Source of the DNA: Halomonas stenophila
GTDB lineage: Bacteria > Pseudomonadota > Gammaproteobacteria > Pseudomonadales > Halomonadaceae
Length of the DNA stretch: 64,000 nt
Direction of reading: 5' to 3'
NCBI RefSeq assembly: GCF_014192275.1
Contig: NZ_JACHXR010000008.1
Coordinates: 1 to 64,000 of the forward strand
Every line of letters starts with the position of its first letter. Within the stretch, counting starts at the first letter, position 1. This document shows positions 59,691 to 64,000 of the stretch, one piece after another. The notes below the pieces were generated by a model. It was given only the letters and a program-made list of their open reading frames with translations, searched no databases and had not been told where the DNA came from. A program made the translations under genes and the position numbers.

Positions 59691-60596
59691 TCAGCCCAGG
59701 ATATCGTCCAGCGCCTCGTCCAGGGTCGGGAAGCGGAACACGAAACCGGCCTCCTCGAGCCGCCGGGGGCGCATGTCCGCCCCGGTCAACAGCAGCCGCG
59801 ACATCTCGCCGAAGGCGCTCTCCAGTACCAGGGCCGGCACCGGCAGCATCGCCGGCCGGTGCAGGTGGCGAGCCAGGCTGCGGGTGAACTCGGCGTTGGT
59901 CACCGGATTCGGCGCGCTGCCGTTGAAGGGGCCGTCCAGGTCGTCCCGCTCGATCAGGAAGAGGATCATGCTGACCAGGTCCTGGCGATGCACCCAGGGC
60001 ATGTACTGGCGACCGTGGCCGAAGCGTCCCCCCAGGCCCAGCTTGAAGGGCGGCAGCATCTTCTGCAGGGTGCCGCCGCCGGCATCCAGCACCAGCCCGA
60101 GACGCAGTATCGCCAGCCGGGTACCGAAGGTCGTGACCTCGCCGGCCACCTCTTCCCAGCGCGCACACAGCCGGTGGGCGAACTCGTCGTGGGGCGGCGT
60201 GTCCTCGGTGACCAGGCGCTCGCCCTGGTCGCCGTAGAAGCCCATCGCGGAGGCCGAGACCATCACCGACGGCGCCCGCCCCCGGGTGGCCGTGAGCTGC
60301 TCGCAGAGCATCGCCAGATCGCGGGTGATGTTGACCCGCGAATCGATCAGCCGCTCCTTCTGGGCATCGCTCCAGCGCCGGGCGGCGATGGACTCGCCGG
60401 CCAGGTTGACCAGGGCATCGGGGGGCGTATCGACGAAGTCGAGCACCGAGCGGCGGATGTCCGTGCCTGCCGGCAGGCGATCGCGGACCCCGTCCGGATC
60501 GCGGGACACCACCAACAGGCGGTGGCCGGCTTCCTCGAGTCGCCGGCACAGCGCCTGCCCGACGAACCCACTGCCTCCGGTGATCAATACACGCAT
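59691..60596 (-). CDS. TIGR01777-family SDR oxidoreductase (YfcH-like)
   Basis: This NAD(P)-binding extended SDR/epimerase-like protein has 301 residues, starting at 60596 (MRVLITGGSGFVGQ) with GGGGAGG upstream. It has ALVNLAGESIAARRWSDAQKERLIDSRVN and the C-terminal DUF1731 tail (LLLTGADMRPRRLEEAGF), which define the TIGR01777 family. The biochemical substrate is unknown. It is divergent from the renalase-like gene across a CarH-type operator, so it probably belongs to the same light/stress regulon. Confidence 0.9.
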   Translation of the reverse strand: MRVLITGGSGFVGQALCRRLEEAGHRLLVVSRDPDGVRDRLPAGTDIRRSVLDFVDTPPDALVNLAGESIAARRWSDAQKERLIDSRVNITRDLAMLCEQLTATRGRAPSVMVSASAMGFYGDQGERLVTEDTPPHDEFAHRLCARWEEVAGEVTTFGTRLAILRLGLVLDAGGGTLQKMLPPFKLGLGGRFGHGRQYMPWVHRQDLVSMILFLIERDDLDGPFNGSAPNPVTNAEFTRSLARHLHRPAMLPVPALVLESAFGEMSRLLLTGADMRPRRLEEAGFVFRFPTLDEALDDILG

Positions 60597-60620: not shown

Positions 60621-60642
60621 GTTATACAGCTGTTGTACACGT
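60621..60642. promoter_or_regulatory. Two abutting 11-bp CarH/LitR-type operator repeats
   Basis: GTTATACAGCT (60621-60631) is followed directly by GTTGTACACGT (60632-60642). Each fits nnTnTACAnnn, the 11-bp direct repeat described for the Thermus CarH operator, and they are exactly in register. They lie between the divergent TIGR01777 and renalase-like genes and overlap plausible promoter elements of both. The matching regulator gene is 1.6 kb away. Confidence 0.75.
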
Positions 60643-60685
60643 CTGCTAGTCTAGCGGTAAATCCCGATTACTGCATGAGACTGCC

Positions 60686-61738
60686 ATGATACCGCACCCC
60701 GACTCCACCGCCGTCATCGGTGCCGGCATCGCCGGCCTGGCCTGCGCCCGGGCGCTCGCCGACGCCGGTCGTCCGGTGGCGGTCTTCGACAAGGGCCGCG
60801 GCCCGGGCGGCCGGATGTCCAGCCGCCACCTGACCGGCGCGGTGGTCGAGCTGGGCGCTCAGTACTTCAGCGTGAGCGACGCGACCTTCCGCGAGCGGGT
60901 GGCGGGCTGGCAGCGGGCCGGCGTGGTGGCGCCCTGGCCGGCGGCCGTCTGGCGACTGGCGGCCGGCGATGCCGCCCGGCGAGTCGACGATCGGCCCCGC
61001 TTCACCGGAGCCCCCCGCATGAGCGCCCTGCTGCGCCATCTGGCCGACGACCTGCCCCTGCACACCGCGACCCGGATCGTCGCTCTGGAGAACGCCGCCG
61101 ATGGCTGGCGCCTGGTCAGCGAGGCGGGGACCCGACACGGCCCCTTCCGGGCGGTCGCGCTGGCCCTGCCCACGCCCCAGGCGGAGGCCCTGGTCGCCCC
61201 CCATGACGCCGCCCTGGCCGAGGCCTGTCGCGGCATTCCCCAGCGGGCCTGCTGGGCCGGATGGGCCCAGTTCGATGCCCCCCTGCCGGCGCTGCCGGGG
61301 CTCGCGGCCGACTGGCAGGCGCTGGAGCCGGCCGAGGGCCCGCTGCGGCTGGTCACCCGCAACCAGACCAAGCCGGGCCGCGAGACCCAGGGCGAGAGCC
61401 TCACCCTGCTGGCCCGCCTGGCCTGGAGCGAGCAACACCTGGAGGAGGACGCCGGCAGCGTGACCGCGCGGCTGCTCGATGCCCTGCAGGCGGCCCTGCC
61501 CGAAGGCATCACCCTGCCCATGCCGCGCCACAGCGGTGCCCACCGCTGGCGCTTCGCCCAGCCGGCGCCGCCGACCGAACGCGGCGCCCTCGACTTCCGC
61601 CTCGGCGAGGGCGGCCTGGCCCTGTGCGGCGACGCCTGGCGCGACGCCCGGGTCGAGGATGCCTGGCTCTCCGGCCATCACCTGGGCCTGGCCCTGACCC
61701 GCCGACACCCCACTCCCCACCCGACGGAGACCGCCTGA
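60686..61738 (+). CDS. Renalase-like FAD-dependent oxidoreductase
   Basis: This flavoprotein has 350 residues. The FAD-binding motif AVIGAGIAGLACARALADAG comes first, then VFDKGRGPGGRMSSRHLTGAVVELGAQYFSV. That order and the GRMSS/GAQYF pair are the pattern of bacterial renalases, which oxidise misreduced (1,2- and 1,6-dihydro) NAD(P)H isomers. The C-terminal FAD contact is LALCGDAWRDARVEDAWLSG. It is the first gene of a unit with cbiX, the MerR regulator and phr. The substrate is inferred from resemblance. Confidence 0.8.
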   Translation: MIPHPDSTAVIGAGIAGLACARALADAGRPVAVFDKGRGPGGRMSSRHLTGAVVELGAQYFSVSDATFRERVAGWQRAGVVAPWPAAVWRLAAGDAARRVDDRPRFTGAPRMSALLRHLADDLPLHTATRIVALENAADGWRLVSEAGTRHGPFRAVALALPTPQAEALVAPHDAALAEACRGIPQRACWAGWAQFDAPLPALPGLAADWQALEPAEGPLRLVTRNQTKPGRETQGESLTLLARLAWSEQHLEEDAGSVTARLLDALQAALPEGITLPMPRHSGAHRWRFAQPAPPTERGALDFRLGEGGLALCGDAWRDARVEDAWLSGHHLGLALTRRHPTPHPTETA

Positions 61739-61739
61739 C

Positions 61740-62114
61740 ATGCGCAGCGCCCTGATCCTGCTGGCCCACGGCTCCAGCGACGCCCACTGGCGAGCCCCCT
61801 TCGAGAACCTGGCCGCGGCCCTGGCCGACCGGCTGTCTACCCCGCTGCGCCTGGCCTACATGGAGCTCTGCGAGCCGTCGCTGGGGACCACCGTGGCGGA
61901 GCTGGAGGCCGCCGGCATCGAGCGGGCCGAGATCCTGCCGCTGTTCTTCGCCGCCGGCCGTCATCTGCGCAAGGATGTCCCCGGCCAGGTGGCCGCCCTG
62001 GGCGAGGCCCATCCGGACCTGGCCCTGACGCTGCTGCCGCCGGTGGGCGAACACCCGGCCTTCGTCGAGGCCTTGGCGGCGGTGATCGCCGAGCAGGCGG
62101 GGGAAGCGAGCTGA
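61740..62114 (+). CDS. cbiX: CbiX/SirB-type sirohydrochlorin chelatase
   Basis: This small single-domain chelatase has 124 residues, starting MRSALILLAHGSSDAHWRAPF. His10 in LLAHGSSD is a conserved metal/active-site residue, and a second region EILPLFFAAGRHLRKDVP carries the other conserved His. This length matches CbiXS-type enzymes that insert Co (or Fe) into sirohydrochlorin. The start lies 1 bp after the renalase-like stop. Its presence beside a CarH-like gene suggests a cobalamin or siroheme connection. Confidence 0.88.
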   Translation: MRSALILLAHGSSDAHWRAPFENLAAALADRLSTPLRLAYMELCEPSLGTTVAELEAAGIERAEILPLFFAAGRHLRKDVPGQVAALGEAHPDLALTLLPPVGEHPAFVEALAAVIAEQAGEAS

Positions 62115-62123
62115 CGGGCGCGT

Positions 62124-62153
62124 TGTACATCGCCGCATTTTTGTACAAAATCG
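62124..62153 (+). promoter_or_regulatory. TGTACA pair and probable promoter of the MerR/CarH-like gene
   Basis: TGTACA occurs at 62124-62129 and 62142-62147, 18 bp apart. TTGTAC and TACAAA(AT) can be read as -35 and -10. The sites match the CarH core TnTACA, though not at 11-bp spacing, and suggest autoregulation. They lie 67 bp or more before the ATG. Confidence 0.5.
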
Positions 62154-62213: not shown

Positions 62214-63128
62214 ATGAGCGATCAGGCGAACCACCCGACCGATACGCCGCTCTATCCGATTCGCGAAGTCTCCCGCCTGACCGGCGTCAACGCGGTGACC
62301 CTGCGCGCCTGGGAGCGCCGTTATGGCCTGATTCGCCCGCGACGCACGCCCAAGGGGCACCGCCTCTATGCCCGGGAGGACATCGAACGGGTCGAGCGGA
62401 TCCTGCAGTGGCTCAACCGCGGCGTGCCGGTCAGCCAGGTTCGCGAACTGCTCGAGCAACCCGATGCCGTGGAGGCCCCGCCGCCCGCTGCGGGGGACTG
62501 GGAAAGCCAGCGACGCCAGCTGATCGCCGCCGCCGAGGCCCTGGACCTGGCCCGCCTCGAGGCGCTGTTCAACCAGGGGCTGTCGCTCTACCCGGTGGCG
62601 ACCTGCATCGACGAGCTCTGGCAGCCGGTGATCCGCGAACTGGAGGAGAGCTGGGATGACCGGCTCGGCGCCGACCTGCAGCGCCGCGCCCTGGAGGCCT
62701 TCCTGCGCACCCGCATCGGCACCCGGCTCTACCATGCCAACCCCCTGGCCGCCGGGCCGCAGTTGCTGATCGTGCCGATGCCCGACGACGCCGGCCCCCT
62801 CTGGGGGCTGCTCGCCGCCCTCGCCGCCAGCGACCGGGGCTACCGGGTCCAGCTGCTCGATGCCCCCCTGCCGGTGCAGGAGCTGCCGCTGGCCGTGGAG
62901 CGCTTCCACGCCGACGCCCTGCTGCTGGCCAGCGGCAAGGCCGAGAAGGCCGACCTGGTACGCCGCCAGCTGCCCCGGCTGGCCGAGCAGCTCGATGTGC
63001 CCCTGACCCTGTGCGGCCCTGTCGCGCGGATCCGCGCGGCCGACCTGGACGGCACCGGGGTGGAGGTCCTCGGCGACGACCTGCCCCGGGCCATGACCCG
63101 CCTGCAAGCTCTCACCCAGGCCGCCTGA
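62214..63128 (+). CDS. MerR-family regulator with CarH/LitR-like architecture but altered cobalamin ligands
   Basis: This 304-residue protein has a MerR helix-turn-helix (about 14-82; REVSRLTGVNAVTLRAWERRYGL, then GHRLY). A four-helix segment (about 97-172) and a Rossmann-like domain (about 180-300) follow, the layout of the AdoCbl photoreceptor CarH/LitR. CarH binds cobalamin through W-x9-E-H and E-x-H-x2-G. Here W147 is followed nine residues later by R157-R158, and the second motif aligns to A193-G-P195-L-W-G198. The ligand residues therefore look replaced. A BluR-like mode of control (protein partner rather than B12) is an alternative. Confidence 0.8.
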   Translation: MSDQANHPTDTPLYPIREVSRLTGVNAVTLRAWERRYGLIRPRRTPKGHRLYAREDIERVERILQWLNRGVPVSQVRELLEQPDAVEAPPPAAGDWESQRRQLIAAAEALDLARLEALFNQGLSLYPVATCIDELWQPVIRELEESWDDRLGADLQRRALEAFLRTRIGTRLYHANPLAAGPQLLIVPMPDDAGPLWGLLAALAASDRGYRVQLLDAPLPVQELPLAVERFHADALLLASGKAEKADLVRRQLPRLAEQLDVPLTLCGPVARIRAADLDGTGVEVLGDDLPRAMTRLQALTQAA

Positions 63129-63141
63129 ACGGGAGCGTCCC

Positions 63142-64000
63142 ATGGCCCCCAGCCTGGTCTGGTTCCGCAGCGACCTGCGCATCCACGACAACACCGCCCT
63201 GACCGCGGCCGCCCGCCGGGGGCCGGTGGTGGCCGTCTTCCTGCGCAGCACCGCCCAGTGGCGCGCCCATGGTCACGGCGCCAACAAGCTGGACTTCTGG
63301 CGACGCGGGGTCGCGGCACTGTCCGAATCGCTGGCGGAGCTCAATATCCCCCTGCTGCACCGGGACGCCGAGACCTTCGCGACGGTCCCCGAGACGCTGC
63401 TCGCCGTGGCCCGAGAGGTCGGTGCCGACGCCCTGCACTTCAACCGCGAGTATCCCCTCGACGAGGCCCGTCGCGACGCCCGGGTGATCGAGGCCTTCAC
63501 TGCCGCCGGCCTCGCCGCCACCGGCCACCATGACGCCGTGGCCTTCGCCCCCGGCGAGCTGCTCACCGGCAAGGGCGACGTCTACGGGGTCTTCACGCCC
63601 TTCGCCCGCGCCTGGCACCGCCAGGTCACCGCCGAGCGCCTGGCCCTGCGCGACACCCCCGGTCCCCAGGCGCCCCTGACCATCCGCGCCGAGCCGCTGC
63701 CCGAGCTGCCACCGCTGGAGGACACCCCCGTGGACAGCCGCCAGTGGCCCGCCGGCGAGGGACCGGCCGCCGACCGCCTGGAGCGCTTCCTGCGCTTTCG
63801 TGGCCGCCACTACGCCGACCAGCGCGACTACCCGGCGATTCGCGGCACCAGCGAGCTGTCGCCCTACCTGGCGCTGGGCATGCTCTCCCACCGCCAGTGC
63901 CTGCAGGCGGTGCTCGCCGGGAACGGCGGCGCCCTGGCCGACGGCGATGCCGGCCTGACGGCCTGGGTCGGCGAGCTGATCTGGCGGGAGTTCTACCAGC
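63142..64000 (+). CDS. phr: Deoxyribodipyrimidine photolyase (partial, runs off the right edge)
   Basis: This DNA photolyase repairs cyclobutane pyrimidine dimers with blue light. The first 286 residues are present. The N-terminal antenna-binding alpha/beta domain starts MAPSLVWFRSDLRIHDNTAL. The FAD domain begins after about residue 200 with LERFLRFRGRHYADQRDYP, GTSELSPYLALGMLS and WVGELIWREFYQ. GGGAG lies 7 nt before the ATG at 63142, and the gene starts 13 bp after the MerR gene, so the two are co-transcribed. Cryptochrome or CPD class I cannot be fully separated from the visible part. Confidence 0.93.
   Translation, partial: MAPSLVWFRSDLRIHDNTALTAAARRGPVVAVFLRSTAQWRAHGHGANKLDFWRRGVAALSESLAELNIPLLHRDAETFATVPETLLAVAREVGADALHFNREYPLDEARRDARVIEAFTAAGLAATGHHDAVAFAPGELLTGKGDVYGVFTPFARAWHRQVTAERLALRDTPGPQAPLTIRAEPLPELPPLEDTPVDSRQWPAGEGPAADRLERFLRFRGRHYADQRDYPAIRGTSELSPYLALGMLSHRQCLQAVLAGNGGALADGDAGLTAWVGELIWREFYQ

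Follow-up and report, generated by a model that had tools for sequence, protein, structure and literature searches.

A conserved tandem 11-bp repeat before a Halomonas renalase-like gene and its predicted reading by a class II LitR regulator

Which regulator reads a pair of abutting 11-bp repeats placed between two divergent genes of Halomonas stenophila, and which genes would it place under the control of light? The window analysed here, i.e., the whole stretch of 64,000 nucleotides, had first been interpreted by a model from its letters. This sequence-only reading proposed a CarH-type operator that controls a renalase-like gene and a TIGR01777 gene as members of a light-response regulon. Our analysis leads to a different assignment: the pair is, with good probability, an operator of a class II LitR regulator that retains a CarH-like tandem geometry, as predicted from sequence.

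The repeat pair and its gene setting

Repeat 1 (gtTaTACAgct, 60621-60631) and repeat 2 (gtTgTACAcgt, 60632-60642) directly abut, confirming the first observation of the sequence-only reading. The window has a single match to TNTACA-N5-TNTACA, at 60623-60639, and 100 dinucleotide shuffles of it have none. The genome-wide scan for paired repeats suggested at the outset, carried out on both strands of the 4,338,385 bases, returned five exact matches against 0 for the reversed-pattern control. Both units fit the CarH repeat nnnnTnnACAn (PMC9304148), and the pattern nnTnTACAnnn used in the first reading is slightly stricter. CarH operators contain three repeats in Thermus and four in Bacillus megaterium (PMC9304148), three or four tandem repeats being a feature of class I CarH/LitR operators, whereas the present site has two, and inspection by eye found neither a third tandem repeat nor an N12 partner in register at 60621-60642. 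The site itself also does not match the class II LitR consensus T(G/A)TACA-N12-TGTA(C/T)A (PMC9758184).

Table 1. Features of the window around the tandem repeat pair
Feature	Coordinates	Strand	Basis or remark
TIGR01777-family oxidoreductase (SDR-like), divergent	59691..60596	-	NCBIfam TIGR01777 323.2 bits, cut-off 207.35
Tandem pair, proposed LitR operator	60621..60642	+	Repeat cores TATACA 60623-60628, TGTACA 60634-60639
Conserved block GTTATACAgcnGTTGTACAcnTCTGCTAGTCTAGCg, ~35 bp	60621..60656	.	Information content; possibly overlapping divergent promoters
Renalase-like FAD enzyme	60686..61738	+	PDB 4zcc renalase, E 2.1e-54, residues 8-337
CbiX-family short chelatase	61740..62114	+	Pfam CbiX 87.8 bits; 1-base gap after renalase
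Class II LitR box TGTACA-N12-TGTACA	62124..62147	.	Consensus match, before litR
LitR-type MerR regulator, class II-like, without B12 ligands	62214..63128	+	CarH 5c8d, E 7.9e-29
DNA photolyase	63142..64000	+	Runs beyond the window; 472 aa in the genome

The pair lies in an intergenic gap of 71-89 bp, depending on whether the divergent TIGR01777 gene starts at 60596 or 60614, with the renalase-like gene starting at 60686 on the other side (Table 1). The renalase-like identity of this second gene product held up against 4zcc, and the protein is 90% and 85% identical to its named relatives in Halomonas maura and H. nitroreducens, respectively. The renalase, CbiX-family, LitR and photolyase genes all lie on one strand, with the LitR start 1.57 kb and the photolyase 2.5 kb from the repeats. 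The proposed link to a nearby CarH/LitR-like regulator and a photolyase stands, although not the CarH nature of that regulator (see below). A second site, TGTACATCGCCGCATTTTTGTACA at 62124-62147 before litR, had escaped the first reading; it matches the class II LitR consensus exactly and is the sole exact match in the genome.

Beyond the repeats, conservation extends over the whole block of Table 1. In 49 genus windows dereplicated below 80% identity, the block carries 1.44 bits per column, compared with 0.19 and 0.22 in its flanks. Since these windows were chosen by the tandem pair itself, more weight falls on the columns outside the selection, which carry 0.93 bits between the cores and 1.25 and 1.23 bits in the two parts after them. 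An 11-bp palindrome, GCTAGTCTAGC, occupies 60645-60655 within the block. The minus strand of repeat 1 contains a -10-like TATAAC that is possibly part of a divergent promoter, and the plus strand of the block contains a -10-like TAGTCT that may be another promoter element. A sigma-70 scan of the block detected no promoter, a result that we count against the reading of the site as a LitR operator.

Conservation of the site within the genus

Stretches from TIGR01777 to litR, or the available part of them, were obtained from 87 genomes, making 88 with the window. The sequence-only reading had made its claim depend on the recurrence of the pair in orthologous promoters, and the pair is indeed present in 84 of the 88 stretches, in 74 of them exactly as TNTACA-N5-TNTACA. 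The four stretches without it are those of G034, which has no LitR match, of G059, whose contig starts inside the stretch, and of G011 and G076. Among the 84 pairs, half-site 1 is TATACA in 78 and TGTACA in 6, and half-site 2 is TGTACA in 69, TGTACG in 8, TATACA in 5 and TATACG in 2; thus the TATACA and TGTACA core types swap while the 11-bp step stays fixed. Taking a renalase match of at least 150 bits as substantial, the pair is found in 49 of the 50 stretches that have such a match and in 35 of the 38 that do not. For 37 genomes with the tandem pair, neither of two class II box patterns matched in the stretch, so that the tandem-pair promoter may be the sole LitR-type site before litR-phr there.

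By eye, litR is apparently the first intact gene downstream of the promoter in G035, G080, G069 and G079, directly after it in the first two, and is preceded by the same repeats; remnants of the renalase start are visible in G069, G073 and G079. In all five genomes (G035, G069, G073, G079 and G080; loci L075, L108, L112, L118 and L119), renalase is absent or reduced to such a remnant, the operator is kept and litR follows, again judged by eye. This is in our reading gene loss under a kept promoter.

Five further genomes bear on the target genes. In G044, G045 and G056 the pair adjoins renalase and lies >100 bp from the TIGR01777 start, and G018 and G038 have it on the cbiX side, likewise >100 bp from TIGR01777. 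These positions argue that control is constant on the renalase/litR side and occasional for TIGR01777. Of the two targets originally proposed, renalase is retained in a modified form, as the promoter appears to drive a renalase-cbiX-litR-phr block, not renalase alone; control of TIGR01777, suggested by the overlap, is the weaker case.

Among the nearly complete genomes of the genus, G034 is the only one to lack a LitR match; it retains CTAGTCTAG and repeat 1, and its repeat 2 reads CCTACA. This one case cuts both ways for a further explanation, in which the block consists of conserved overlapping core promoters and the TRTACA cores are -10/-35 elements with no operator role. The retention of CTAGTCTAG without LitR fits that explanation, as does the TATAAC that repeat 1 forms on the minus strand, yet it is the promoter-like parts that G034 retains and repeat 2 that is altered. 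Moreover, TRTACA cores recur in other settings, in folE promoters and upstream of the renalase genes of other families (see below), and the sigma-70 consensus was absent in the scan. Core promoters without an operator role are, in our judgement, very unlikely to account for the site.

LitR class and a candidate photosensor partner

The window LitR contains LRAWERRYG, and thus the RxWERRY recognition helix of class I CarH/LitR, and its residues 4-244 align with Thermus CarH. However, the ligands for B12 are missing. In the Wx9EH motif the Trp is kept and EH is replaced by RR, and the residue aligned with the lower axial His of D/ExHxxG is Gly. The same holds for all 38 LitR sequences taken from the fetched loci (34 genomes after merging gene copies; four from another genus of the family), in which EH is RR, RL or RV and the aligned stretch has no axial His. 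Against two B12-binding Pfam models the window LitR reaches 16.7 and 17.1 bits, both below cut-off, the higher score being that of B12-binding_2 (the 4-helix domain) with a cut-off of 23 bits. A structure prediction made from three near-identical sequences reached a mean pLDDT of 49.8, with values >70 in the HTH part only. Class II LitR proteins are described as having no usable B12 site and a short LOV photosensor as partner (PMC9758184), whereas they are called B12-dependent in PMC11417400. The window regulator resembles class II LitR, with a LitR-type HTH and a C-terminal region predicted to be unable to bind B12.

On these grounds a CarH/AdoB12 sensor was rejected. The corresponding reading of the DNA, as a classical CarH site that is bound in the dark by an AdoB12 tetramer and freed by light-driven cleavage of the Co-C bond, a LOV partner not being involved, can draw on the 11-bp tandem repeats, on CarH 5c8d as the best solved relative of the LitR, on the CbiX-family chelatase in the block and on the B12 dependence stated in PMC11417400 against PMC9758184. 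Nevertheless, the ligand residues are lost in every LitR sequence compared, the retained Trp notwithstanding, the B12 models stay below cut-off, there are just two repeats, and boxes of class II type stand at litR and folE; we regard a classical CarH site as extremely unlikely. What remains of the operator first proposed is a conserved, operator-like tandem pair; its assignment to the CarH type gives way to a class II-like LitR on two repeats.

A candidate partner is available. The genome encodes a short LOV protein of 144 aa (matched part G000:C4:283257-283658, on a contig other than that of litR) with 66% identity to a query entered as PpSB1-LOV and an E value of 4.1e-56 to PDB 3sw1. In P. 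mendocina, illuminated short LOV binds class II LitR and stops its action in BIAcore and in vitro transcription assays, but in a gel shift the LitR-LOV complex was still on DNA in light (PMC9758184), which we count against release by LOV. With a best E below 1e-50 as threshold, short LOV is present in 71 of 90 genus genomes and absent in 19, and among 18 genomes that lack it and whose stretch was read, 15 keep the repeats. This too counts against the LOV reading and argues that LOV is not the sole input everywhere, with another input or a light-independent role in those genomes. BLUF was considered as an alternative sensor and rejected, with no match in the 90 genomes. As a side observation, no LOV match is listed for G007, G015, G022, G023 and G026 (loci L047, L055, L062, L063 and L066), which have no folE operator and keep the litR-side repeats; G024, with no LOV match either, nonetheless keeps both.

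Related sites, proposed mechanism and known systems

Of the other genomic pairs, one lies upstream of folE (L130:2725-2741 = G000:C1:337224-337240; folE C1:337303-337857), a gene that is modestly light-induced in P. mendocina and is among the PplR-dependent genes of P. putida (both PMC9758184). The gene was found in 89 of 90 genus genomes, and 70 of its promoters (30 loci and 40 stretches) were compared. The pattern TGTACA-N12-TGTAYA-N5-TGTAYA is exact in 22 of the 70 and present with at most one mismatch in 40; in this arrangement the middle half-site belongs to both a class II box and an 11-bp tandem pair. No other sequence evidence points as strongly to the 11-bp pair being read by class II LitR. 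Allowing one mismatch, a pair or box precedes folE in 49 of 51 genomes with short LOV versus 7 of 19 without (Fisher p 3.4e-7, uncorrected for ancestry), and in 5 of 3500 shuffles.

The three remaining pairs are less informative. TGTATA-N5-TGTATA (L131:3141-3157; G000:C3:310640-310656) lies 111 bp upstream of a glyoxalase-like (gloA-like) gene at C3:310751-311281. Exact pairs are found at just 4 of 30 loci of this gene, with near-pairs in a few more, and the gene was not accepted as a regulon member; given so few exact pairs, it may be a recent recruit or the pair a product of chance. The other two, at C3:310524 (116 bp from the gloA-like one) and C25:6619, have no convincing target behind them.

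To extend the comparison beyond the genus, 293 genomes of the order were surveyed, with a renalase match at E<=1e-20 in 125 and a LitR match in 72, two of each belonging to the own genus. Outside the genus, 38 genomes have both, within 5 kb of each other in 32. We compared the 330-bp regions preceding renalase for every one of the 38 LitR-positive genomes and for 50 of the 85 LitR-negative ones, chosen in rank order with three skipped. LitR-type sites are found in 22 of 38 LitR-positive and 0 of 50 LitR-negative genomes, counts that are not independent owing to shared ancestry and that depend on a loose criterion fixed after part of the sequences had been seen. Promoters of the LitR-positive genomes contain on average 2.00 TRTACA half-sites, versus 0.10 for the LitR-negative ones, and block-shuffling the LitR-positive promoters gave a mean of 0.14 hits (max 2) against the real 22. 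Exact 11-bp pairs occur in 5 LitR-positive promoters, all of family f38; the three other f38 genomes have one-mismatch pairs, as do three genomes of family f1. A class II box, exact or with one mismatch, is present in 14 promoters (nine f21, two f27 and three f38 that also have the pair). Within family f38, all 8 renalase promoters found have an 11-bp TRTACA tandem pair (L155, L156, L159 and L165-L169).

The remaining 16 of the 38 have no qualifying site before renalase, which we count against the LitR reading. Among them, several differently spaced half-sites are seen in three f27 promoters and the f29 promoter, GGTACA-N5-CGTACA in three f1 promoters, and nothing clear in the others. In L164 and L170-L174 (f29 and f27), several TRTACA half-sites whose spacing is not 11 lie upstream of a renalase gene next to divergent litR. 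Co-occurrence of renalase and LitR over 291 genomes of the order is weak (odds ratio 1.9, p 0.026); the adjacency of the two genes is the stronger signal.

Two loci show how the arrangement recurs. In the f21 genome G210 (L148), a divergent TIGR01777 gene, a class II box, renalase, two boxes, a RudS-like gene and LitR follow one another, so that this locus, too, has a LitR-type site between divergently oriented TIGR01777 and renalase genes. The L148 renalase is a full-length close relative of 4zcc (E 2.2e-161), from which we deduce that f21 is probably Pseudomonas-like, and the class II box ends 48 bp before its ATG; RudS-like is our own reading of the next gene, which scores 96.8 bits with NCBIfam PRK10167, below the cut-off of that model. 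The f38 locus L155 likewise runs renalase, a similar RudS-like gene and LitR.

These comparisons also bear on whether a different regulator, MerR/BldC-like or unrelated, binds the repeats, the proximity of LitR being coincidental. Published class II sites are spaced differently (PMC9758184), tandem repeats would also suit BldC, and most genomes without short LOV retain the site (15 of 18). Against this stand the half-site common to both geometries at folE, the distribution of sites between LitR-positive and LitR-negative genomes, and the single LitR-like match (E<=1e-20) in the own genome, and we assign such a regulator very little probability. Membership of renalase in a light regulon, by comparison of these promoters, is a well-supported prediction.

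From the parts, their conservation, the gene identities, the loss of B12 ligands, the presence of LOV, the folE half-site and the order-wide association with LitR, we infer a scheme that covers binding, repression, light, LOV as sensor, operon structure and physiological role. In the dark, LitR would occupy the two TRTACA half-sites in head-to-tail orientation, as a dimer or a larger oligomer, masking the promoter of renalase-cbiX-litR-phr and perhaps an overlapping divergent TIGR01777 promoter. Blue light would act via the short LOV, which would bind LitR and strip it off the DNA, so that renalase, photolyase and further LitR could be produced; the box before litR would contribute autoregulation. 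Renalase, in turn, would dispose of the 2- and 6-dihydro isomers of NAD(P)H or of related damage that increases under illumination.

The recurrent placement of renalase behind LitR-type sites near litR points to a link with light stress, and conservation of the site in most relatives examined suggests that renalase is part of the light response of the bacterium. If so, bacterial renalases would gain a physiological role in the removal of NAD(P)H isomers or light-made damage products. The tandem 11-bp site further suggests that a LitR without B12 ligands still binds DNA head to tail like CarH, in which case this way of reading DNA would have persisted while LOV replaced B12 as the light sensor. 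The full generalization, that class II LitR reads both 18-bp N12 pairs and CarH-like 11-bp tandem pairs, joined at folE into a three-half-site operator, and that renalase is a light-induced enzyme conserved across several gammaproteobacterial families, where it disposes of NAD(P)H isomers or of damage products arising in light, has in our estimate an even chance of being correct.

The Halomonas protein is homologous over about 330 residues to PDB entries 4zcc, 4zcd and 5krq, which we take to be those of Pseudomonas renalase; its activity is a prediction from this homology. Renalases oxidise 2-/6-dihydro-NAD(P) isomers. The literature found does not describe the regulation of the crystallised renalase and treats bacterial renalase without regulatory context. 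One gene of the light-induced operon of P. mendocina encodes an FAD-dependent oxidoreductase, PME6625, for which no family is given (PMC9758184). The 19 light-induced genes of P. putida reportedly go back to Sumi 2020 in J Bacteriol, which is the source cited for them. Our search, outside which this primary study lay, returned no paper with both renalase and photolyase.

One of the closest published systems is the RudS-PplR1-PhrB light operon of P. putida (PMC11417400, PMC11014904), which L148 and L155 resemble in running renalase, RudS-like and LitR; the window block differs in having no RudS-like gene, and the passages of these papers do not name renalase. There, PP_0738 to PP_0742, including photolyase PP_0739 and PplR1 PP_0740, are up-regulated together in co-culture, possibly in connection with light stress (PMC11014904), and PP_0741 is RudS in a LitR-controlled operon (PMC11417400). 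By synteny, PP_0742 would in our reading be the renalase. In Pseudomonas-like genomes renalase belongs to a cluster ordered like the published PplR1 cluster, which means that light control of the locus is partly in print, although no paper found names renalase at the PplR1 cluster.

With the CarH operators of Thermus, Bacillus megaterium and myxobacteria (PMC9304148), the Halomonas site has in common the tandem 11-bp TnnACA repeats overlapping promoter elements, the latter predicted here, and a homologous DNA-binding domain of the regulator; it differs in having two repeats instead of three or four, a regulator without B12 ligands and neighbours that are not carotenoid genes. The class II LitR/short LOV systems, PplR1-3 with PpSB-LOV in P. 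putida and PmlR2 with PmSB-LOV in P. mendocina (PMC9758184), are set apart by N12 sites in place of the 11-bp tandem pair, and the Halomonas block adds renalase and CbiX, with the LOV gene on another contig. The two nevertheless have much in common: a regulator predicted to have no usable B12 site, TGTACA-N12-TGTACA at litR, a LOV protein in the genome, a photolyase gene beside litR and LitR-type sites at folE.
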